Source: a virus. Taken from it: a stretch of DNA of 46,204 bases. Of this stretch, positions 10,320 to 41,721 are shown piece by piece. The stretch covers positions 1-46,204 of IMG/VR virus record IMGVR_UViG_3300021083_000075. The stretch is one strand, 5' to 3'. The position numbers and the translations under genes are program-made. Numbering within the stretch: the stretch's first letter is position 1; each line of letters begins with the position of its first letter. The notes below the pieces were generated by a model, which saw only the letters and a program-made list of their open reading frames with translations, did not search any database and was not told where the DNA came from.

Positions 10320-11327
10320 GTGATAGTCCGCAAGTTACAACCAATTCGAGCGCCTGAAAAAGAGTTTGAGGAAATAGAGAAACGCCTCAAGCGCCTATTC
10401 CTCGAATTGGTTTATCGTCCGATACTCAAAGATTTAAACCTACCCGAAAAAGCTATCTTCAATTCTGTGCCAGTTTATCCGGCGCTCAATCTCGCTCTAA
10501 GCTCTGGACGCCTCACATTCAATCAAGGCGTGTTCTCGGGAAAGTTTAACGGTGCTGTTTCTAAAGAGCTAAGAGACTTAGGAGCTAAGTGGGACTTCGG
10601 GGATAAAGTTTTCCGTCTCAACAAAGACAAGCTGCCAGTTGAACTCACCCGAGCGATAGACCTAAGTGAAACCCGTTTTGTAAAAAAACTAGACAGCATT
10701 GACCATAGAATCGAAAAGGTTCTTTACGAAAGCCCGTGGGATAAATTTAATTTCTCAGATTTATTTGACAAAAGTATTTTTAAGGTAGATAAAGAGTTTA
10801 GGAAGAACGTAGAGAAGATTTCGATTCAACCTAAGGTATCGGATGAACAAGCAAAGAAGATTTCCGAGATGTGGCAAAGCACTTTCAAGATTAAGTGCAA
10901 AGACTTCGGGACTGAACAAATGCTTGATCTCCGAGAAAAGGTTAAAAAAGCGTATCTAGCTGGTGACCGTTACGGAACATTAGTTAAAACCTTCCAAACG
11001 TCCTACGGTATCAGCGAACGCAAAGCGGAATTCTGGGCAAGAAACGAAACACGAAGCCTAGTGAGCGCTTATCAGGGTGCAAGGTATGTTGAGGCTGGAG
11101 TTCCGGGGTATCACTGGAAAGCGGTGACTGGCAGTTCGGCTCACCCGACTCGACATAGACACCGTGAGCTTTCTGACATGAGCGCTAAAGGTCAAGTCTT
11201 TTACTGGAATGACCCACCTAGGGTGACTGAGTTGGGCGCAAAGGGGCCGGTGAGATACGAAAACCCCGGAGGCGATTACAATTGTAGGTGTACCGGAATT
11301 CCAGTGGTAGAACGGAAAAGCAAATGA
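10320..11327 (+). CDS. minor head protein, Mu gpF / SPP1 gp7-like
   Basis: A 335-residue protein, GTG start. The C-terminal 100 residues carry the MuF pattern: ARNETRSLVSAYQGARY, GYHWKAVTG, RHRHRELSDM, then FYWNDPP and a terminal NCRC (Cys motif near residue 325). MuF-type proteins sit inside the capsid at the portal and help head morphogenesis or are ejected with the DNA. The N-terminal half is charged and helical without a known toxin domain. It ends in an ATGA overlap with the protease-scaffold gene. Confidence 0.85.
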   Translation: MIVRKLQPIRAPEKEFEEIEKRLKRLFLELVYRPILKDLNLPEKAIFNSVPVYPALNLALSSGRLTFNQGVFSGKFNGAVSKELRDLGAKWDFGDKVFRLNKDKLPVELTRAIDLSETRFVKKLDSIDHRIEKVLYESPWDKFNFSDLFDKSIFKVDKEFRKNVEKISIQPKVSDEQAKKISEMWQSTFKIKCKDFGTEQMLDLREKVKKAYLAGDRYGTLVKTFQTSYGISERKAEFWARNETRSLVSAYQGARYVEAGVPGYHWKAVTGSSAHPTRHRHRELSDMSAKGQVFYWNDPPRVTELGAKGPVRYENPGGDYNCRCTGIPVVERKSK

Positions 11328-27933: not shown

Positions 27934-28245
27934 ATGGCTTACAAAATTAAAGCTTTGGACGGGAGCGGATTGACCGGATATATAGTTTCTAGTTATTCCG
28001 AAATGACTGGATTGACAGGAATCATAGCGGGCAATCTCGCTTATTTGGAAATGAACGGCTTACTAACGGTTTGGGAGTTTAACGGGTCGCTAAATGTTTG
28101 GAAGATCGAAGATAAGTTTTATGCAACATCTGCTCAAGTGTCGGGTTTAGTTGGCATGAATGGCGGAGATCAGATTTATGTTACAGATAGCGGTGAGACT
28201 GGCTTTTGGAATGCAGTTACATCAACTTGGAGTTGGGTACCATGA
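27934..28245 (+). CDS. small tail fibre-associated protein, copy B
   Basis: A 103-residue protein resembling the preceding gene: LLTVWEFNGSLNVWKIEDKF in place of its aromatic repeat and FWNAVTSTWSWVP at the end. Tandem duplication followed by divergence is inferred. It overlaps the next gene by ATGA. Confidence 0.55.
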   Translation: MAYKIKALDGSGLTGYIVSSYSEMTGLTGIIAGNLAYLEMNGLLTVWEFNGSLNVWKIEDKFYATSAQVSGLVGMNGGDQIYVTDSGETGFWNAVTSTWSWVP

Positions 28246-29873
28246 GCATTAAACAATTTTTGTTATCGTTACTGTTTTTAATTCCACAGATAGCCTTGGC
28301 TACCACGAATGTTAACTCCGTGGCTACCATGACGGCCTATTCGACTCCTTATGCTGGTCAACAATTCTTTGTAACTACCGCTACTCCGGGAGTCTCTCAA
28401 AATTGGACATATACCGGCCCTACTAACGGATTTCAGAATACAACGTCATCGACAAATGCACAGCAAACGGGGAAAACTTGGATTAAGTATGGCCCGATTC
28501 TTACACCTATCCCGACAAGTGACCAAGGAACGGTACAAGAACCCGCTTTGTTGCCTGTGCCGGTGGAAGGAAACCCACAAATATTAACTAGCCTTCCTTT
28601 AGTTTGGAAAATGTGGTTTCGTGAAGGTTGGAGCGTTGAAAATATTTATTATGCCGAAGCGCCCCCATCTGGCCCCAATGGTTCGCCTGGGCCGTGGACA
28701 AGGTGGCCAACTGCCTCGGTTACGGGTCACGCTCAACCAGACGTTTTTGAAATACCTGGTTCTAACCCAGTAACTTATGTAATGTTAGCTTCGCCTTATG
28801 GTGAACAGATTGATAAATACATCTCCACGGATGGACATTCATTTACTTTAGCTAATTCGGCGGTGGTTACGTTGGGCGGCCAATCATGGTACTCAAACGG
28901 CGTTTATAACAATTCCGTAACCGTCATTGGGTCAACGGTAAATCTTATGCTAGAAGGAATAAATGCTAGTGGTGTTTATTCGATTGGATTATTTACGGCG
29001 CCAGTAACGAATATGTCTTATTTCACGCCTTATTCTGGCAATCCTGTAATTTCAAATGGAATTTATACCAGAGGTAGCCCGTCGAATATTTTTAACGAAG
29101 ATGGAGAATTTTATATTTGGTGTCATGGGACAAACCAATCCGGCACACTTCCAACGGATATGTACCGGTATGAATCGTCAGCAATTGCCCAAGTTTGGAC
29201 AGCAAGCCCCAACGAAACTGTTTTTCCTAGAACTACTCTTGACGAAGGCGTCAATTCTTTGCAAGGCCAAGTTGCTGACCCGTTCTTAACGGAATGGATG
29301 GGTTGGAGTTATGATTTTTATAGCGCATCGCCAAACGGTTCGGTTAGCACCGGTGGCGGTGACATAAAAATGGCGATATATCCAGGGACTCTAAGCCAGT
29401 TGGTCGCCACAACCGAAAACGCCCCAGACAACAACACCTTGAGCGCGGTTTCGACTGGCGGAACTGGACCTACTTATGGAGTTCCAAACGCGGGAATAGC
29501 TCTAGACGCCAGTGGATTCCTACAACTTGGTGGGGTGCTTAACTCTTACTTTGGGATAAACGTCTATTTGGGTAACGTTCTCGCTTTCCAAGGAACAACC
29601 ATGCAGGTTTATTCAAATAACTATTTGTTTATGCAAGGAGATAGTGGCGGTAACATTTACATGACTCCGCACGGACATCTTTATTTATATTCTGGTAGTA
29701 GCACTGAGGCTGTCGACATAAGCACCACTCAAGTTAATTCTTTCTTGCAAGTGAACGCTCCTTCTTATTCGGTTGCGGCAACACCTGGAGCTAGTTTCGG
29801 AGTCACTCAACTGAATGCCTTGGCGACGCCAGTGGCAACACATACTTGGTATAACGGAATAGGAACAAACTAA
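28242..29873 (+). CDS. exported tailspike/beta-propeller-like protein
   Basis: A 543-residue protein; ATG 28242 lies in an ATGA overlap. It begins with a Sec-type signal, MSIKQFLLSLLFLIPQIALA, unusual for a virion protein. Residues about 90-390 resemble a glycosidase-like five-bladed propeller (HAQPDVFEIPG, SPSNIFNEDGEFYIWCHG, VADPFLTEWMGWSYDFYSAS). The C-terminal region (GNIYMTPHGHLYLYSG) has a fibre-like character. It may be a surface-acting enzyme or a spike that is first exported. No catalytic residues can be named with confidence. Confidence 0.55.
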   Translation: MSIKQFLLSLLFLIPQIALATTNVNSVATMTAYSTPYAGQQFFVTTATPGVSQNWTYTGPTNGFQNTTSSTNAQQTGKTWIKYGPILTPIPTSDQGTVQEPALLPVPVEGNPQILTSLPLVWKMWFREGWSVENIYYAEAPPSGPNGSPGPWTRWPTASVTGHAQPDVFEIPGSNPVTYVMLASPYGEQIDKYISTDGHSFTLANSAVVTLGGQSWYSNGVYNNSVTVIGSTVNLMLEGINASGVYSIGLFTAPVTNMSYFTPYSGNPVISNGIYTRGSPSNIFNEDGEFYIWCHGTNQSGTLPTDMYRYESSAIAQVWTASPNETVFPRTTLDEGVNSLQGQVADPFLTEWMGWSYDFYSASPNGSVSTGGGDIKMAIYPGTLSQLVATTENAPDNNTLSAVSTGGTGPTYGVPNAGIALDASGFLQLGGVLNSYFGINVYLGNVLAFQGTTMQVYSNNYLFMQGDSGGNIYMTPHGHLYLYSGSSTEAVDISTTQVNSFLQVNAPSYSVAATPGASFGVTQLNALATPVATHTWYNGIGTN

Positions 29874-30076
29874 TGAAAACTATATTCGGTAGCAGAATAA
29901 CTTTTGTAATTTGGCACGCTTTCATTGGAGCGCTTTTGTCTTTTTGGGTAGCACACATTGCAAACTTAATGGGTTGGATTACATGGCCTTCGGCTAATGT
30001 AGCTTTTTGGATTTGTTTAATTGTTGGCGGTTTAGTTGGTTGGTATCATCACCCGTTATCACATAAGGAGCAGTAA
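29873..30076 (+). CDS. two-span membrane protein, holin candidate
   Basis: A 67-residue protein starting in a TAATG overlap. Two hydrophobic spans (about 10-30 and 40-58) are joined by GWITWPSAN, with a His/Lys-rich tail (HHPLSHKEQ). Size and topology fit a class II holin, but the gene sits between two exported proteins, so it could serve them instead. Confidence in the holin role is moderate. Confidence 0.5.
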   Translation: MKTIFGSRITFVIWHAFIGALLSFWVAHIANLMGWITWPSANVAFWICLIVGGLVGWYHHPLSHKEQ

Positions 30077-30077
30077 G

Positions 30078-31187
30078 ATGAAAAAGATTATAGCGTTTTT
30101 AATTTTGATGGCCACGGCTTCTACGGCTTTGGCTCAAGTTACTTCAGTGACGGCTGTTAGCGCTCCGGCTTGCGCTTCTCCAGGACAATCAATTGCGGTT
30201 ACTTTCACCGTTACGGATAACGGAAACTTTGGGACCGTGAGTTACGACGTTTACTTTTCTTCTAATTCGACGGTACAGAACGGCGCTTGGTCATCTCACG
30301 ATCAAACAACCATTACTTGCCCCGTAGGTACTACCGGCGGTTATCAGTTCAACGATGGTGGTAATACGGTCAATACTATTGTTCAAAGCGTTATTGTTCC
30401 TGCGAGTGGATTTTCTGGATACATCAACGTTTCCGCTGTTGAAAATTTAGTTGGAACCATCCTTTGTACTAGCGTACAAGGCAATACCGTTTTCAATTAT
30501 CCTTGCACTTCCACTTTCACGCCAACATTCACGCCAACAGCCACGAATACGGCGACGAATACAGCCACGGCTACAGCTACGAACACGATAACGATCACCA
30601 ATACACCGGCTCATACATACACGTTTACGCAAACGGCTACAAATTCAGCTACAAATTCAGCAACGAATACGGCTACAAACACACCGACAAATACAGCAAC
30701 TAACACGGCGACTAAAACGGCTACCAACACCGCTACGAATACGGCTACCGTCACAAACACTAACACTTGGACAAGTACGGAAACGCCAGTTCCTACGAAG
30801 ACTATTACGCCCACGCCAACGCAACCGACTGCCACTATCACGCCAACGCCTGCAAACGCCACTTATTTCGCTAATCAAACTGGCGGTTCTGCCTCGGCTT
30901 ACGCAACACCTACATACCTGAGCTTTATTCCGTCTCCAGGAAATAGCAACTATCCAGTAATTTTGGGAGGTGTAATTTCTAACGCTGGCGGACCAACTAC
31001 TGCCGTCAATGTCGGATTAGTCGCTGGCGGGTTTTACATTTGGGGACCGCAAGATATTTACACTAGCGTACCCATTGGCGCTTTAGTTCCTAGTTCTTAC
31101 GCCGGTCAACCGGTTTCGATTCTCATTAACGGCCCCGGTACGATCTTCGGAAGTGCTAACTTTAAATTTCAAGTACCTCATCCGTAA
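30078..31187 (+). CDS. secreted protein with Thr/Asn-rich repeat linker
   Basis: A 369-residue protein. ATG 30078 follows AAGGAG. The N-terminus MKKIIAFLILMATASTALAQ is a clear signal peptide. A first Ig/CARDB-like domain (about 21-140) is followed by about 110 residues of TNTAT-type repeats (Thr, Asn, Ala and Pro) and a C-terminal beta domain (PVILGGVISNAGGPTTAV, then SILINGPGTIFGSANFKFQV). Such linkers occur in surface proteins of several uncultured bacterial phyla, so this may be host-derived. No enzymatic motif is visible. It is probably secreted or surface-exposed. Confidence 0.7.
   Translation: MKKIIAFLILMATASTALAQVTSVTAVSAPACASPGQSIAVTFTVTDNGNFGTVSYDVYFSSNSTVQNGAWSSHDQTTITCPVGTTGGYQFNDGGNTVNTIVQSVIVPASGFSGYINVSAVENLVGTILCTSVQGNTVFNYPCTSTFTPTFTPTATNTATNTATATATNTITITNTPAHTYTFTQTATNSATNSATNTATNTPTNTATNTATKTATNTATNTATVTNTNTWTSTETPVPTKTITPTPTQPTATITPTPANATYFANQTGGSASAYATPTYLSFIPSPGNSNYPVILGGVISNAGGPTTAVNVGLVAGGFYIWGPQDIYTSVPIGALVPSSYAGQPVSILINGPGTIFGSANFKFQVPHP
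30515..30850 (+). repeat. degenerate coding repeat (Thr-Asn-Thr-Ala linker)
   Basis: Tandem short units based on ACGAATACGGC or ACAAATACAGC encode TNTA/TNSA repeats inside the secreted protein. Units vary at the third base, so the array has been maintained at protein level. Such arrays can vary in copy number by slippage. Confidence 0.85.
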
Positions 31188-31200
31188 GAAAGGGTAGGTG

Positions 31201-31581
31201 ATGGACGACTTCCATTGGACTACTTTGCACACTTGGTTATCTAGCGGGGCTGGAGTTGTTGCTTGTGGTTTTTTTTATCGTAGAATTGCTGACATTGCGA
31301 GCGGAGCTTCGTCCGCTTGCGGTGAATTTATTTTTAAACACTTGCCGTTTCTTAAACCCGTACCACCAAAAGGGACTAACGCTCAAATGATAAAGATAGC
31401 AAGACTTAAGCAAGAGTTGGATGACTTAACCAGAACTGTAAATAAGGTGGTTAAGAAACTAACTAAGACAGAGAAGCGATTAGAGGCTTGTCAGGGAGAG
31501 CGGGCCGAATGTCGAGCAGATCTAAAAAACATTCTTTTCAGGGTAGAAGTATTGGAAGGGAAGCGTAAATTTGGACTTTGA
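31201..31581 (+). CDS. membrane protein with coiled coil in the lysis region
   Basis: A 126-residue protein; ATG 31201 has AAAGGG about 9 bases upstream. One hydrophobic span near the N-terminus (SGAGVVACGFFYRR) precedes a long basic-acidic coiled coil (IARLKQELDDLTRTVNKV onward) with CQGERAEC. This build resembles inner-membrane spanins or holin partners, and it lies directly before the endolysin-like genes. Overlap with the next TTG start suggests coupling. Confidence 0.6.
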   Translation: MDDFHWTTLHTWLSSGAGVVACGFFYRRIADIASGASSACGEFIFKHLPFLKPVPPKGTNAQMIKIARLKQELDDLTRTVNKVVKKLTKTEKRLEACQGERAECRADLKNILFRVEVLEGKRKFGL

Positions 31582-32128
31582 TTTCGTTCCTCTGGCGGAC
31601 TTAGACCTAAATGCTTTTGAAATGAAGGCTGTTAATGAAATCTATGCAAAGCAAAAAGTCAATCAAGCCTATTGGCAAGAAACTCCTCAAGTATTTATCG
31701 AGAATTATATTCGCTGTAGCAAGTCAGCTATTCCATGTAACGCTATACCTTCTGTTGTTATCGCTCAAGGTATCCTCGAATCGGGCTGGTTCTCGACAAA
31801 CTCGCTCTTTGGAGTCAAAGCCAGTGTGCTACAAACTCAGGAACATATTGGCGTTCAATCTCAAACGCATGAAGTCGTAGGGACGTTATCGATTCCGACG
31901 GTTGGAACGTTTTACGAAAGTCCTGGTGTGCAGAATAACTTCGCCAACTATTACGCCTATATCTTAAGGATGAAAACGAATAGCGCTCAGTTTATGCCTA
32001 GCGATTATATTGGGTTTTTAAACTATCTTCAAAGTCCGTTGGCCTATTCAACGGCGGGGGCTGATTATGTTAATTCGATCACGGAAGTTATCCGCTCAAA
32101 TAATCTAACCGTATTCGACCATGCTTAA
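31571..32128 (+). CDS. N-acetylglucosaminidase-type endolysin (FlgJ-like)
   Basis: A 185-residue protein, TTG start overlapping the previous gene. Residues about 35-175 match the FlgJ/glucosaminidase fold: IPSVVIAQGILESGWFSTNS with the catalytic Glu at residue 70, NSLFGVKAS, and a C-terminal GADYVNSITEVIR. It hydrolyses peptidoglycan glycan strands. There is no signal peptide, so export depends on a holin. A second wall hydrolase follows. Confidence 0.8.
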   Translation: MDFDFVPLADLDLNAFEMKAVNEIYAKQKVNQAYWQETPQVFIENYIRCSKSAIPCNAIPSVVIAQGILESGWFSTNSLFGVKASVLQTQEHIGVQSQTHEVVGTLSIPTVGTFYESPGVQNNFANYYAYILRMKTNSAQFMPSDYIGFLNYLQSPLAYSTAGADYVNSITEVIRSNNLTVFDHA

Positions 32129-32663
32129 GCTTTTATTTCTGCCTTTGGTTTTTGTATTCCCGTCTTTCATTGATTCAGCTATTGCGCCTCCGAGTGCTTA
32201 CGTCAATCACTATCTAGGAACTAAAGCCTTGTGGGATGCAAAGATGGGGCTGTATACACCAGATGAGCTTAATTCTTTCGTGCAAGCCACGTTTTTAGGC
32301 ACTTTGGGAGAAGCTAAACTATGCAAGGCGCTATCGGCTATTTCATTGCTTGAGTGTGGTCCAAAAAGGCCTGTAAGAGATAAAACGGGTCATCTAGGCG
32401 GTCATCGTGAAACTATCCGTCGTGGCGCTAAAGAAGCGGGGATTAAAGAGAAATTCGTTTACCGAAACCTGAAACGATTCAGCCCTTACAATAGGACTCT
32501 CTCTCTCTCTCGACACTTCTCGATTCTATACGCTCATTACAATGGCGACCTTGAAAAGACTTGTCGCATTTGGAATCAAGGCCCTAAGTGGAAAACGAAA
32601 AAGGCAACGAGCTACTACCACGGGGTTTTAGCTTTCTCAAAGATATACGATAAAGTAAACTGA
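32121..32663 (+). CDS. exported lysozyme/transglycosylase-like protein
   Basis: A 180-residue protein. The N-terminus MLKLLFLPLVFVFPSFIDSA is a likely signal or anchor. The core has ALSAISLLECGPK with a candidate catalytic Glu at 78, GHLGGHRETIRRGAKEAG, then LSLSRHFSILYAHYNGD and WNQGPKW. These are the landmarks of SLT/lysozyme-like folds. It probably works in the periplasm alongside the glucosaminidase. It overlaps the previous gene by 8 bases. Confidence 0.7.
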   Translation: MLKLLFLPLVFVFPSFIDSAIAPPSAYVNHYLGTKALWDAKMGLYTPDELNSFVQATFLGTLGEAKLCKALSAISLLECGPKRPVRDKTGHLGGHRETIRRGAKEAGIKEKFVYRNLKRFSPYNRTLSLSRHFSILYAHYNGDLEKTCRIWNQGPKWKTKKATSYYHGVLAFSKIYDKVN

Positions 32664-32673
32664 CTGCCTAATG

Positions 32674-32700
32674 CCCGTCTACCTTAGATGGGTTTAGTTT
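32674..32700 (+). terminator. terminator-like hairpin after the second wall hydrolase
   Basis: CCCGTCT (32674-32680) pairs with AGATGGG (32686-32692) around ACCTT, with one G-T pair. TTTAGTTT follows. A moderate intrinsic terminator. Confidence 0.6.
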
Positions 32701-32917
32701 GTGGAAGTAATTCATAACGTGAGTATCTGAGCGGGTGAACGTAGTCCACTTTAAAAATTTTCCTGCGTTCACAGCCTTACTCTTGTGCGGGACCACAGGG
32801 GAGCTGAAAACCGTGAGCTACGTCCTTCATGGACATTCGACGGTTATTAAGCGAATCGGATGCGGTTTCCTAGGCACCTCGCTAAGCTGGGGTAATTTTT
32901 TTGCCTGAGGAGGCACT
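32701..32917 (+). ncRNA. candidate structured leader RNA before holin-like/patatin genes
   Basis: About 220 bases with no convincing gene but many pairings. GTGAACG (32735-32741) pairs with CGTTCAC (32766-32772). CTCTTGTG (32780-32787) pairs with CACAGGGG (32794-32801). AACCGT (32809-32814) pairs with ACGGTT (32840-32845), enclosing GTCC-TTCAT-GGAC. ACCTC (32876-32880) pairs with GGGGT (32889-32893), followed by seven T. AAACCG (32808-32813) could instead pair with CGGTTT (32863-32868), and TGCCT/AGGCA (32102+800 to 32115+800, that is 32902-32915) would bury the ribosome-binding site. It may be a terminator-controlled leader or a free noncoding RNA. Not matched to a known class. Confidence 0.5.
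32876..32902 (+). terminator. terminator-like stem and T7 run just before a ribosome-binding site
   Basis: A 5-bp stem ACCTC/GGGGT is followed by AATTTTTTT. It sits 16 bases before the ATG at 32918 and forms the 3' part of the structured leader described above. The placement suggests attenuation or the 3' end of a noncoding RNA. Confidence 0.5.
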
Positions 32918-33244
32918 ATGTTTGAATGGATTGGTAAAGCGTTTTCGAGTGTTAAGTCTTCGGTTGATGGTTTTTTAGTCGCTAACCCACTGGTTAAAAA
33001 CCTGCTTGATGGGGTTGTGAAGGCTGGATTAGTCGCGGGCTTGACGGTAGTTTCTTCTGCTCTTGCGCCTGCCAGCGCCACGGCGATAACCGTCTCTGGG
33101 ATTATTGCCGCTGTCAGTGTTGGAGTGAAGACTTACGCACAGCACCAAGCGGACGTGTATGTTCAATCTCAAATCAATTCGTTAGTTCCTACGTCGCCTG
33201 TAGTGTCAACGTCGGTGCCTGTTGCGCCGTCGGTTACTAAGTGA
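32918..33244 (+). CDS. hydrophobic holin-like protein
   Basis: A 108-residue protein with strong ribosome-binding AGGAGG. After an amphipathic start (MFEWIGKAFSSVKSSVDGFL) come hydrophobic Ala/Gly/Val segments at about 38-55 and 61-74, then a Pro/Ser/Val-rich tail. It overlaps the patatin gene by GTGA, so both are made together. Holin or pinholin activity is plausible; delivery of the phospholipase to the membrane would fit. Confidence 0.5.
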   Translation: MFEWIGKAFSSVKSSVDGFLVANPLVKNLLDGVVKAGLVAGLTVVSSALAPASATAITVSGIIAAVSVGVKTYAQHQADVYVQSQINSLVPTSPVVSTSVPVAPSVTK

Positions 33245-34161
33245 AGTCCGATCTCGCTTTAGGCGGGGGCGGGTCGTTCGGCGCATTTCATCTAGGCGTA
33301 CTTTTACAGCTCACTAACAACGGGGCTATTCCGGTTTCGAGTTTGTTTAATCGAATCGTGGGGACGTCTACCGGCAACCTTTGCGGAGTAGGCTTAGCCT
33401 TTAAAGGCGTTGCTGGACTTGAGGCAGTTTGGAAAGGTATCAAAAGCACTCAAGATATTTACGTCTCAAAAGACCCTAGCGGAATTCCATTGAATGAGAT
33501 TTTTGATTTAGCTTTCGGCTCATGGGACGGGCTTTTGAACGATGCGCCGTTATTCAAACTGATTCAGTCGCTAGTAACCGGAATTCCTTCTGTTCCTGTA
33601 ACGTCATGCTTTGTTGACTACGTTGACGGTCAAACTTATTTCGTTACAGCTTTAACGGACGGGACTTTCGTTTTAGAACACGGCGACGGGACTGTTGAAA
33701 CCTACGATCAAACTTGGTTGACTCAATATCAACTTTGCGTTTTGGCGTCGGCGTCTACCCCAGGTGGCGTGAATTCAGTTACGATCAAACTCAAGAGCAA
33801 AACCTTAACAGGCGCTTTTGATGGTGGCGTAATGGATATGATTCCTAACGACTACACGTTAAACTTAGCGGGCGGTTCAGGACAAGTGATTTCGATTTCA
33901 CTTACCGACCCTATCTCCGTTTATACCGGCGAAACGAACGTCGTTGGAACGCTCAATAGGTCAATCGAGCTTTTAACCTACGGACAATTTATCCAAAGCA
34001 GAGAACGGTTGAGGTCGTCTCAATCTTCGACGTTGAATATAGTTGAGTATCAGAAGCCCGCTCTTGGTGGCGACTCTACTCAATTTGTTTCTGCGATTAT
34101 TGAGCAGTACATAACGGCGGGTCAAACAGCTTTACCGGTATTTGGAACGCTTCAAGTTTAA
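33241..34161 (+). CDS. patatin-like phospholipase
   Basis: A 306-residue protein, GTG start in a GTGA overlap. It shows the complete patatin signature: oxyanion glycine loop LGGGGSFGAFHLG (7-19), nucleophile elbow GTSTG with Ser43 (41-45), VLASASTPGG (167-176) and the catalytic DGG with Asp194. Patatins are Ser-Asp acyl hydrolases acting on phospholipids. There is no signal peptide, so it would act from the cytoplasm on the inner membrane. Placement after wall hydrolases and a holin-like gene suggests membrane destruction at lysis. The last gene of the late operon. Confidence 0.88.
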   Translation: MKSDLALGGGGSFGAFHLGVLLQLTNNGAIPVSSLFNRIVGTSTGNLCGVGLAFKGVAGLEAVWKGIKSTQDIYVSKDPSGIPLNEIFDLAFGSWDGLLNDAPLFKLIQSLVTGIPSVPVTSCFVDYVDGQTYFVTALTDGTFVLEHGDGTVETYDQTWLTQYQLCVLASASTPGGVNSVTIKLKSKTLTGAFDGGVMDMIPNDYTLNLAGGSGQVISISLTDPISVYTGETNVVGTLNRSIELLTYGQFIQSRERLRSSQSSTLNIVEYQKPALGGDSTQFVSAIIEQYITAGQTALPVFGTLQV

Positions 34162-34183
34162 TAGCTAAAAACGCTTAAAATAA

Positions 34184-34217
34184 AGGGGTTTCGTGTAAAA
34201 GCGATAACCTCTTTTTT
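34184..34217 (+). terminator. intrinsic terminator at the end of the late operon
   Basis: AGGGGTT (34184-34190) pairs with AACCTCT (34206-34212), with inner TCG/CGA pairing, followed by a run of T. It ends the structural-lysis transcription unit, and a strong promoter for the next unit follows within 20 bases. Confidence 0.82.
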
Positions 34218-34230
34218 ATTACTTAATCGC

Positions 34231-34259
34231 TTGACACTATTAAACTATTCGTTTATAGT
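34231..34259 (+). promoter_or_regulatory. sigma70-like promoter TTGACA-N17-TATAGT
   Basis: A consensus -35 (34231-34236), exact 17-base spacer and TATAGT (34254-34259). It lies directly after the late terminator and fires into the recombination/replication region. Shares CGCTTGAC with the promoters near 35226 and 43322. Confidence 0.85.
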
Positions 34260-36230: not shown

Positions 36231-37091
36231 ATGGAAAACGAAAAAGTAGTAATGCTTAACATCTATCAGGCTATCGGCGGAATCATGGGCGAGTTAGGCC
36301 CTATCAAAAAAGATAAGCAAAACAAGTCTCAGGGATTTTCGTACCGTGGCATAGACCAGCTTTACAATGCGCTCAACCCTTTATTTTCAAAGTATAAAGT
36401 GTTTTGCGTCCCTAAAGTTTTGGAGCGCACAACGTCGGATTACCAGACGAAAGGCGGGGACACTTGGAAAAACGTGGTTTTGAAGGTTGAGTACAAACTC
36501 ATTGCCGAGGACGGGACGTTCGTTGAGGGAACGGTTTACGGAGAAGGTAGCGACTCGGGCGACAAGGGAACTAATAAAGCTATGTCAGCCTGTCAGAAGT
36601 ATTTCTTTTTTCAGACGTTCGTTGTGCCTACGGATGACATTGTTGACGCTGATAAGGATACCCCGCCTGTTGCTTCGAGTGCGCCGGTAGTCCCGCCGGT
36701 AGCGGAAGACCCTAGACTCAAGGCTTTGCCGTTCGACATTCAAGGCATTTTGCGGGATAAGAAGTTTGGAGTTAAGCAGGTTTTGGACTTCTGTAATCTT
36801 CACAAGTGGGACAATGAGAAGATGCGGGCGACGCTGAAACCTAAAACCGTTGCTCAAGTAGTCGCGCCGGTTGACCATCCAGTAATCGAGCAAGCCAAAG
36901 AAGTCGAAGTTATGACCGAGGGCGACGGGGTTTATGCTGATTTTTACGAAGCTATCCGTACCGCTTCACCGACGTACTACTCGTTTATTGAAAAGGAAGT
37001 GGCTAAAAGCAAAGCTATTTCTCAAGAGCAGAAAACTAAGCTGTTAGGACTTTTAACCGCCCGCAAAAGCGGTAAAGCAGTAACTAAATAA
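36231..37091 (+). CDS. erf: ERF-family single-strand annealing recombinase
   Basis: A 286-residue protein, AAAGGGG upstream. Residues about 11-140 carry the ERF signature: IYQAIGGIMGELGPIKKD, FSYRGIDQLYNALNPLF, and DSGDKGTNKAMSACQKYFFF. ERF proteins anneal complementary single strands and drive phage homologous recombination and genome circularisation. A Pro/Val linker at 147-160 is followed by a C-terminal domain with Lys-rich helices. It follows the coiled-coil partner gene. Confidence 0.9.
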   Translation: MENEKVVMLNIYQAIGGIMGELGPIKKDKQNKSQGFSYRGIDQLYNALNPLFSKYKVFCVPKVLERTTSDYQTKGGDTWKNVVLKVEYKLIAEDGTFVEGTVYGEGSDSGDKGTNKAMSACQKYFFFQTFVVPTDDIVDADKDTPPVASSAPVVPPVAEDPRLKALPFDIQGILRDKKFGVKQVLDFCNLHKWDNEKMRATLKPKTVAQVVAPVDHPVIEQAKEVEVMTEGDGVYADFYEAIRTASPTYYSFIEKEVAKSKAISQEQKTKLLGLLTARKSGKAVTK

Positions 37092-40305: not shown

Positions 40306-41721
40306 ATGAGTTATGAAAAGTATCTCGAATCGAAAATGGATGCGCCGATTATGTCAGGGATGGAACCTATCGGCATTGGAATAAATCCTACGCTCTTTGA
40401 ATATCAACGAGATCTGACAACGTGGGCTTTGAGGCGTGGACGGGCGGCTATATTTGCGGATACGGGATTGGGTAAGACATTCATGCAGATTGAGTGGGCT
40501 AACCAAGTATCGTCAAAAGGGCGTGTGCTGATTCTTGCGCCTTTGGCTGTTGCCGAGCAGACGGTTTTAGAAGCCAAAAAGTTAAACGTAACGATAAAGT
40601 ATCGTCGGAAAGACGAAGGCGACCTAATCACAATCACGAATTATGAAATGCTACATGAGTTTGATGTGTCAAAATTCGTGGGCGTCGTTCTGGACGAAAG
40701 CTCGATTTTAAAATCCTACAGCGGAAAAATGAGGACGGCGCTAATCGAGACATTTCAGAAAACGCCTTTCCGTTTGGCTTGCACTGCGACGCCTAGCCCG
40801 AATGACTATACAGAGTTGGGCAATCACTCGGAGTTTTTGGGAATCAAAAGCAGATCTGAAATGCTGGCAGAATATTTCGTTCACGATATGGACAATACGC
40901 AAGACTGGAGACTTAAAGGCCATGCAATCGAACCATTCTGGAAGTGGGTTTCGTCGTGGGGCGCAATGCTCAAAAAACCTAGTGACCTTGGATATTCCGA
41001 TGACGGTTTTAAACTTCCTGCTTTGGAAATCGAGGAAAGAGTCATTCCATCTAATCACAAAGACTACTGGGCGGAAGGGTTCTTATTTGCGCCTGATGCT
41101 AAAACCTTGTCAGACCAAAGAGCAACAAGAAGAGCTACGATGTCAAAAAGATTGGAAATGGCTAAAGAGCTGGCGGTAGGTAAAGAACAGGTTTTAATTT
41201 GGTGCGAATTGAATGATGAAGGTGATGCGCTAGAAAAGCTGATTGATGATTCACTCCAAGTTAAGGGCGGTGACGATCTTGAAGAAAAGAGCGAAAGGCT
41301 ACTTGGTTTCGCTTCTAAAGATTTCAGAGTTTTAATAACTAAAGCTAAAATCGCAGGGTTTGGAATGAACTGGCAGAACTGCAATAAAATGATTTTCATG
41401 GGTGCTAGTCATTCTTATGAGCAAACCTATCAGGCTATCCGGCGGTGTTGGCGATTTGGACAAAAGAAGCCGGTTAAGGTTTATATAATTTGCTCAGAGA
41501 ATGAGACTTCAATCTTAACTAACTTGAAGCGTAAAGAGTCGGATGCAGAAAAGATGGGCGCTGAAATGACCGCTAGGGTTTGTGGGATTCTGTCGGCTGA
41601 AATCAAAGGCACTAAAAAAGAGTGGAATGAATACAATCCAAAAAAGAAGATGATAGTCCCTTCTTGGATTGGAGAGGAACTTGAGGAAGTCGCAAGCGGA
41701 ATATCAGAGGCGGTGGTATAA
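40306..41721 (+). CDS. SNF2/DEAD-like helicase
   Basis: A 471-residue superfamily 2 ATPase; ATG 40306 with AAGGA upstream. Motif I DTGLGKT (52-58), motif II LDESS (129-133, a DExx variant), motif III ACTATPSPND (158-167), and motif VI RRCWRFGQKKPVKVY near residue 385. It translocates on DNA. It is followed by a DNA methyltransferase, a pairing common in phages and reminiscent of restriction-system helicases. No nuclease domain is attached. Confidence 0.85.
   Translation: MSYEKYLESKMDAPIMSGMEPIGIGINPTLFEYQRDLTTWALRRGRAAIFADTGLGKTFMQIEWANQVSSKGRVLILAPLAVAEQTVLEAKKLNVTIKYRRKDEGDLITITNYEMLHEFDVSKFVGVVLDESSILKSYSGKMRTALIETFQKTPFRLACTATPSPNDYTELGNHSEFLGIKSRSEMLAEYFVHDMDNTQDWRLKGHAIEPFWKWVSSWGAMLKKPSDLGYSDDGFKLPALEIEERVIPSNHKDYWAEGFLFAPDAKTLSDQRATRRATMSKRLEMAKELAVGKEQVLIWCELNDEGDALEKLIDDSLQVKGGDDLEEKSERLLGFASKDFRVLITKAKIAGFGMNWQNCNKMIFMGASHSYEQTYQAIRRCWRFGQKKPVKVYIICSENETSILTNLKRKESDAEKMGAEMTARVCGILSAEIKGTKKEWNEYNPKKKMIVPSWIGEELEEVASGISEAVV

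Follow-up and report, generated by a model that had tools for sequence, protein, structure and literature searches.

A divergent patatin-like phospholipase gene and a small hydrophobic partner gene form a putative lysis or egress module in a dwarf myophage

The DNA analysed in the present study, hereafter called the window, is the whole of IMG/VR record IMGVR_UViG_3300021083_000075 (46,204 nt), a 46-kb dwarf myophage. Its portal, head, sheath and baseplate proteins are syntenic with those of Bdellovibrio phage phi1422, which belongs to the phiPLPE-like dwarf myoviruses (PMC3391216) and whose portal protein is 43% identical; the likeness covers the portal-to-baseplate block, a size of ~45 kb and a contractile tail. 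The two ends of the window have a near-identical stretch of ~70 bases in common, with no exact terminal repeat. The tail fibre is followed by two proteins whose N-termini resemble signal peptides, then a 67-aa protein, a 127-aa protein, an endolysin, a 180-aa protein, a gap and then two overlapping genes, a small partner and a patatin. The features from the 67-aa protein onwards are listed below.

29873..30076, + strand: 67-aa protein with two strong transmembrane stretches (hydropathy)
31198..31581, + strand: 127-aa protein with a weakly hydrophobic N-terminal stretch and a charged coiled-coil-like tail; small lysis-accessory candidate
31571..32128, + strand: endolysin of the glucosaminidase family PF01832 (Pfam, 33.6 bits; PHROG)
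32121..32663, + strand: 180-aa basic protein with a signal-peptide-like N-terminus
32664..32917, + strand: non-coding gap of 254 nt before the partner gene, with an RBS at its end
32918..33244, + strand: 108-aa Ala/Gly/Val-rich partner with a conserved FLVANPxxKN motif, directly 5' of the patatin and also present in two other phages
33241..34161, + strand: patatin-like phospholipase gene, 306 aa, Ser43/Asp194 dyad (ORF list, Pfam and alignments)
34182..34217, + strand: terminator-like hairpin AAAGGGGTT...AACCTCTTT plus a T run, directly 3' of the patatin (read from the sequence)
34231..34259, + strand: sigma70-like promoter TTGACA-17-TATAGT, opening the next (early/replication) block

The original prediction had placed a patatin ORF with intact catalytic landmarks at 33241–34161, and both points were confirmed. 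The reading frame starts with GTG and has exactly these coordinates, and its product carries the oxyanion loop GGGGSFGA at residues 8–15 (oxyanion Gly8–11), the nucleophile motif GTSTG with Ser43 and the FDGG motif with Asp194. Pfam PF01734 matched residues 5–204 with an E value of 1.5e-10 and 42 bits, against a gathering cut-off of 27.7 bits; the oxyanion glycines, GxSxG, DGG and a length of ~300 aa are common to the window protein and the patatin-like phospholipases of this family (RssA, CapV/CapE, PlpD and iPLA2). No signal peptide was found on the protein. It had no patatin match in PHROG, a homologue search of 50,697 GenBank phage records gave no match, and direct homologue searches in IMG/VR and GTDB contigs returned nothing. 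The window patatin is predicted from its sequence to be a divergent PF01734 subfamily outside the known phage families. Structure prediction, originally proposed as a check, gave an AF2 model with a pLDDT of 41, and a Foldseek search with this low-confidence model ranked the CBASS patatin CapE first (E 1.3e-4). The AlphaFold models, whether built from a single sequence or from three sequences, were poor and are used here as weak support only.

The pair of genes recurs in two further phages. The first (L120, IMGVR_UViG_3300029922_000102, 48,461 bp) was found by a degenerate-codon scan for the GGG[SAT]xGA[FY] loop; its patatin is 66% and its partner 49% identical to those of the window, and the pair is located after a GH108 endolysin. 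The other match of this motif scan (L119) was an out-of-frame chance match. The second phage (L123, IMGVR_UViG_3300050821_001649, 40,580 bp) was found by a scan with the two partner sequences; its partner is 47% and its patatin 28% identical to those of the window, and the pair lies directly after a GH25 endolysin. The L123 patatin independently scored 42.9 bits to PF01734. As L120 was found via the patatin motif only and L123 via the partner only, the pairing is not an artefact of the search. Thus the same two genes stand behind a different endolysin in each phage, a glucosaminidase in the window, GH108 in L120 and GH25 in L123.

Comparison of the three patatins showed that the catalytic residues are retained. 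GGGGSFGA, GTSTG and FDGG are invariant between the window protein and its L120 homologue, the more distant L123 protein also keeps GGGS, the nucleophile serine (in GVSAG) and DGG, and the alignment shows GGG, Ser and Asp conserved in all three. Between the window and L120 genes, non-synonymous divergence is 0.23 per site compared with a saturated synonymous value of 0.77, which places the patatin gene under purifying selection.

The two genes are tightly linked. The TGA stop codon of the partner overlaps the GTG start codon of the patatin (GTGA), so that the patatin begins within the stop codon of the partner, and the corresponding overlap in L120 and L123 is ATGA, also of four bases. No Shine–Dalgarno-like sequence of the patatin's own was visible. 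The overlap behind the original claim of translational coupling was found in all three phages, and the coupling itself is plausible given an overlap with no separate Shine–Dalgarno-like sequence. The partner protein had no family match in Pfam or PHROG. It had been described as holin-like; that it is hydrophobic was borne out, but its hydropathy is moderate and not decisive (KD 1.8 and 1.7, with unfavourable octanol scores), and the 67-aa protein at 29873–30076, with its two transmembrane stretches, is the better and, by its sequence, the phage's best holin candidate. After the hydropathy analysis we dropped the idea that the partner is the holin, and 'hydrophobic partner' is the preferred term. 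The partner may just as plausibly target or restrain the enzyme as form a pore.

The position of the pair points to late expression. The late unit ends with the patatin, and beyond the hairpin and the promoter lies a replication/recombination block with an Erf protein at 36231. The hairpin has eight Watson–Crick pairs out of nine plus one G–T pair, with a long loop, and was not returned by the scan; the promoter is near-consensus (11/12). The patatin of L120 is likewise followed by a strong hairpin with a T run and by a promoter, so that two genomes share this arrangement. In L123 the cassette lies away from the tail genes, with one more gene downstream in the same direction. Relatives of the window phage have their lysis region behind the tail fibre, where small membrane proteins and endolysins are encoded (GH108 in L099 assigned by Pfam; the others by eye). 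Two peptidoglycan hydrolases had been expected ahead of the pair in the window, of which one, the glucosaminidase, was identified; the product of 32121–32663 matched no family or solved structure, and a second hydrolase there is only suggested.

We then considered how the pair is distributed. No similarity to the portal, terminase or major head genes of the window was detectable by tblastn in L120 or L123, suggesting that transfer of the pair has not been tied to the head and packaging genes. L120 is a myophage, and its portal belongs to the same broad PHROG as that of the window, with weak tail-protein and tail-fibre matches; L123 has a different portal and head family. Among 66 phage records, most of them related via terminase or portal, a PF01734 profile search hit only the window, and profiles built from the pair itself found neither gene in 38 larger records, many of which are fragments. 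Neither gene was detected in phi1422 with PF01734 and the pair profiles, and a scan of genome contigs with the two-patatin alignment gave nothing. Since only three phages carry the pair and ~50 portal-related phages have no patatin, several of them with long or complete-looking records, the pair appears to be dispensable. Such a distribution is what a transferable accessory module travelling with lysis genes would show.

A separate search seeded with RssA for other phage patatins was set aside, as its matches were gut records without annotation and one Acinetobacter 'phage' contig, probably contamination. CAKLQH020000002.1 and CAKLQF020000003.1 (Acinetobacter phage MD-2021a), of 254 kb, are filed as phage records; in the one that was inspected, only bacterial chromosomal-type genes surround the patatin, a probable contamination of the phage collection.

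Taken together, we consider it probable that the partner and the patatin form a two-gene module for a late, membrane-lipid attack step of lysis or egress. As the overlap and the position suggest, translational coupling would yield the two proteins together, from the 3' end of the late operon. Since the patatin has no signal peptide, its target would be either the inner membrane, reached from the cytosolic side, or the outer membrane, after the holin has opened the inner one. By deacylating phospholipids, the Ser43–Asp194 dyad would assist the endolysin in breaking the envelope, and the partner would probably bring the enzyme to the membrane or restrain it until release. A broader idea, which we regard as possible rather than probable, is that an FLVANP partner and a divergent patatin make up a mobile module that phages of different lineages add to any endolysin, with the partner as a dedicated targeter or timer of the phospholipase. 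If so, the pair would represent a further class of lysis proteins beside holin, endolysin and spanin, in phages that keep a normal endolysin.

Late expression would also fit virion proteins. The pair might therefore serve at entry, with the partner as a membrane-active virion protein and the patatin as a virion-associated or injected lipase that loosens host membranes; the hydrophobic hairpin of the partner and a tape-measure-like match in L123, weak and below the cut-off (TMP_2, E 0.002), are consistent with this, and the authors of the phage WO work also left entry open (PMC3173496). However, the pair lies beyond the endolysin, outside the conserved structural block, is separated from the structural genes in L123 and is not tied to the head and packaging genes in its movement, which makes a role at entry unlikely. 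An auxiliary metabolic role, in which host lipids are remodelled or nutrients released during infection apart from lysis, can be envisaged in so far as fatty acids could be gained by deacylating membrane lipids, and patatin genes of aquatic viruses have been called auxiliary metabolic genes (PMC9469726). Such a role appears distinctly improbable, as neither the late position, nor the small hydrophobic partner in 3/3 known cases, nor the recurrent endolysin neighbourhood would be expected from it.

Patatins are common CBASS effectors, and the N-terminal 50 residues of the window protein weakly match CBASS phospholipase profiles at 25 bits. These matches cover the generic motif region only, with 25 bits over residues 5–58 against a cut-off of 200 for the NCBIfam equivalog and 25 bits over residues 5–55 in PADLOC, and the protein does not appear to be a CBASS-type effector. 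Least probable of all is that the patatin is a moron for lysogenic conversion, superinfection exclusion or defence, killing or protecting cells against other phages like CapV/CapE, as it sits in a late unit, neither an integrase nor a repressor turned up in the proteins scanned, and a PADLOC scan of 13 other proteins round it, covering part of the small ORFs, gave no CD-NTase and no credible match (one chance-level AbiEi, E 0.045).

A lysis or egress module thus accounts best for a pair that recurs behind different endolysins in phages whose structural genes differ, and is preferred over a defence gene. The original proposal of a lipid-attacking lysis step rather than a defence effector is thereby partly supported: the pair follows the endolysin in the late operon, recurs behind three different endolysins and gave no full-length CBASS-type match. 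The lysis role itself is predicted from sequence context. The setting is like that of the mycobacteriophage LysB esterase, a lipid-directed enzyme in the lysis cassette beside a peptidoglycan endolysin, although LysB, which cleaves mycolyl-arabinogalactan, is an alpha/beta hydrolase rather than a patatin.

The closest known proposal is that for Wolbachia phage WO, for which a lytic cassette of a patatin and a small holin-like protein was put forward in 2022 (PMC9203015), following an earlier suggestion of a lysis role for the WO patatin (PMC3173496). The novelty of the present pair is reduced accordingly. In both cases a patatin adjoins a small hydrophobic or holin-like gene in a tailed phage, and a lysis role is proposed. 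However, the WO patatin matches the CBASS-effector type along its full length (PADLOC model, 211 bits), unlike the window patatin, and only the first ~55 residues of the two align. The small neighbour of the WO patatin at 40457–40672 of L018, which may not be the holin-like ORF meant by the authors, gave no alignment with the window partner. Furthermore, WO has no canonical endolysin–holin–spanin system and no conserved endolysin, and peptidoglycan was not detected in its host (PMC9203015), whereas the window phage carries its glucosaminidase endolysin. Because the patatins align in the first 55 residues only, the small proteins do not align and the endolysin is kept, the window pair may work as proposed for WO, but it does not appear to be a member of the WO cassette family. 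Apart from holins and spanins, the means by which Gram-negative phages disrupt membranes are still incompletely described, and a part for patatins in lysis has so far been no more than a proposal, made for a phage that has no canonical endolysin and lives in Wolbachia, an obligate intracellular host. The present pair adds what appears to be an independent lineage of patatins, found in phages that do carry an endolysin and available for testing in three versions, together with a defined partner gene.

Two further observations concern the surrounding region. The 254-nt gap before the partner folds better than shuffled sequences (z −2.6, computed on 32661–32920) and is a possible regulatory RNA. 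L120 has a gap of similar size that aligns weakly with it; nothing similar was found in phages, and Rfam gave no match.

Signal-peptide-like N-termini recur in proteins of this phage group beside the short tail-fibre gene. They occur in the window at 28206–29873 and 30036–31187, and in relatives at 10438–14514 of L099, 40429–42273 and 44298–44810 of L098, 8050–8940 of L100, 9076–10785 of L107, 12748–13332 of L115, 17591–18193 of L102, 6461–7732 of L120 and 9271–10656 of L141. Several of these proteins have long TPT/TNT-rich linkers, and one has a sialate-esterase-like domain by eye. Sec-exported proteins adjoining tail fibres are unusual.
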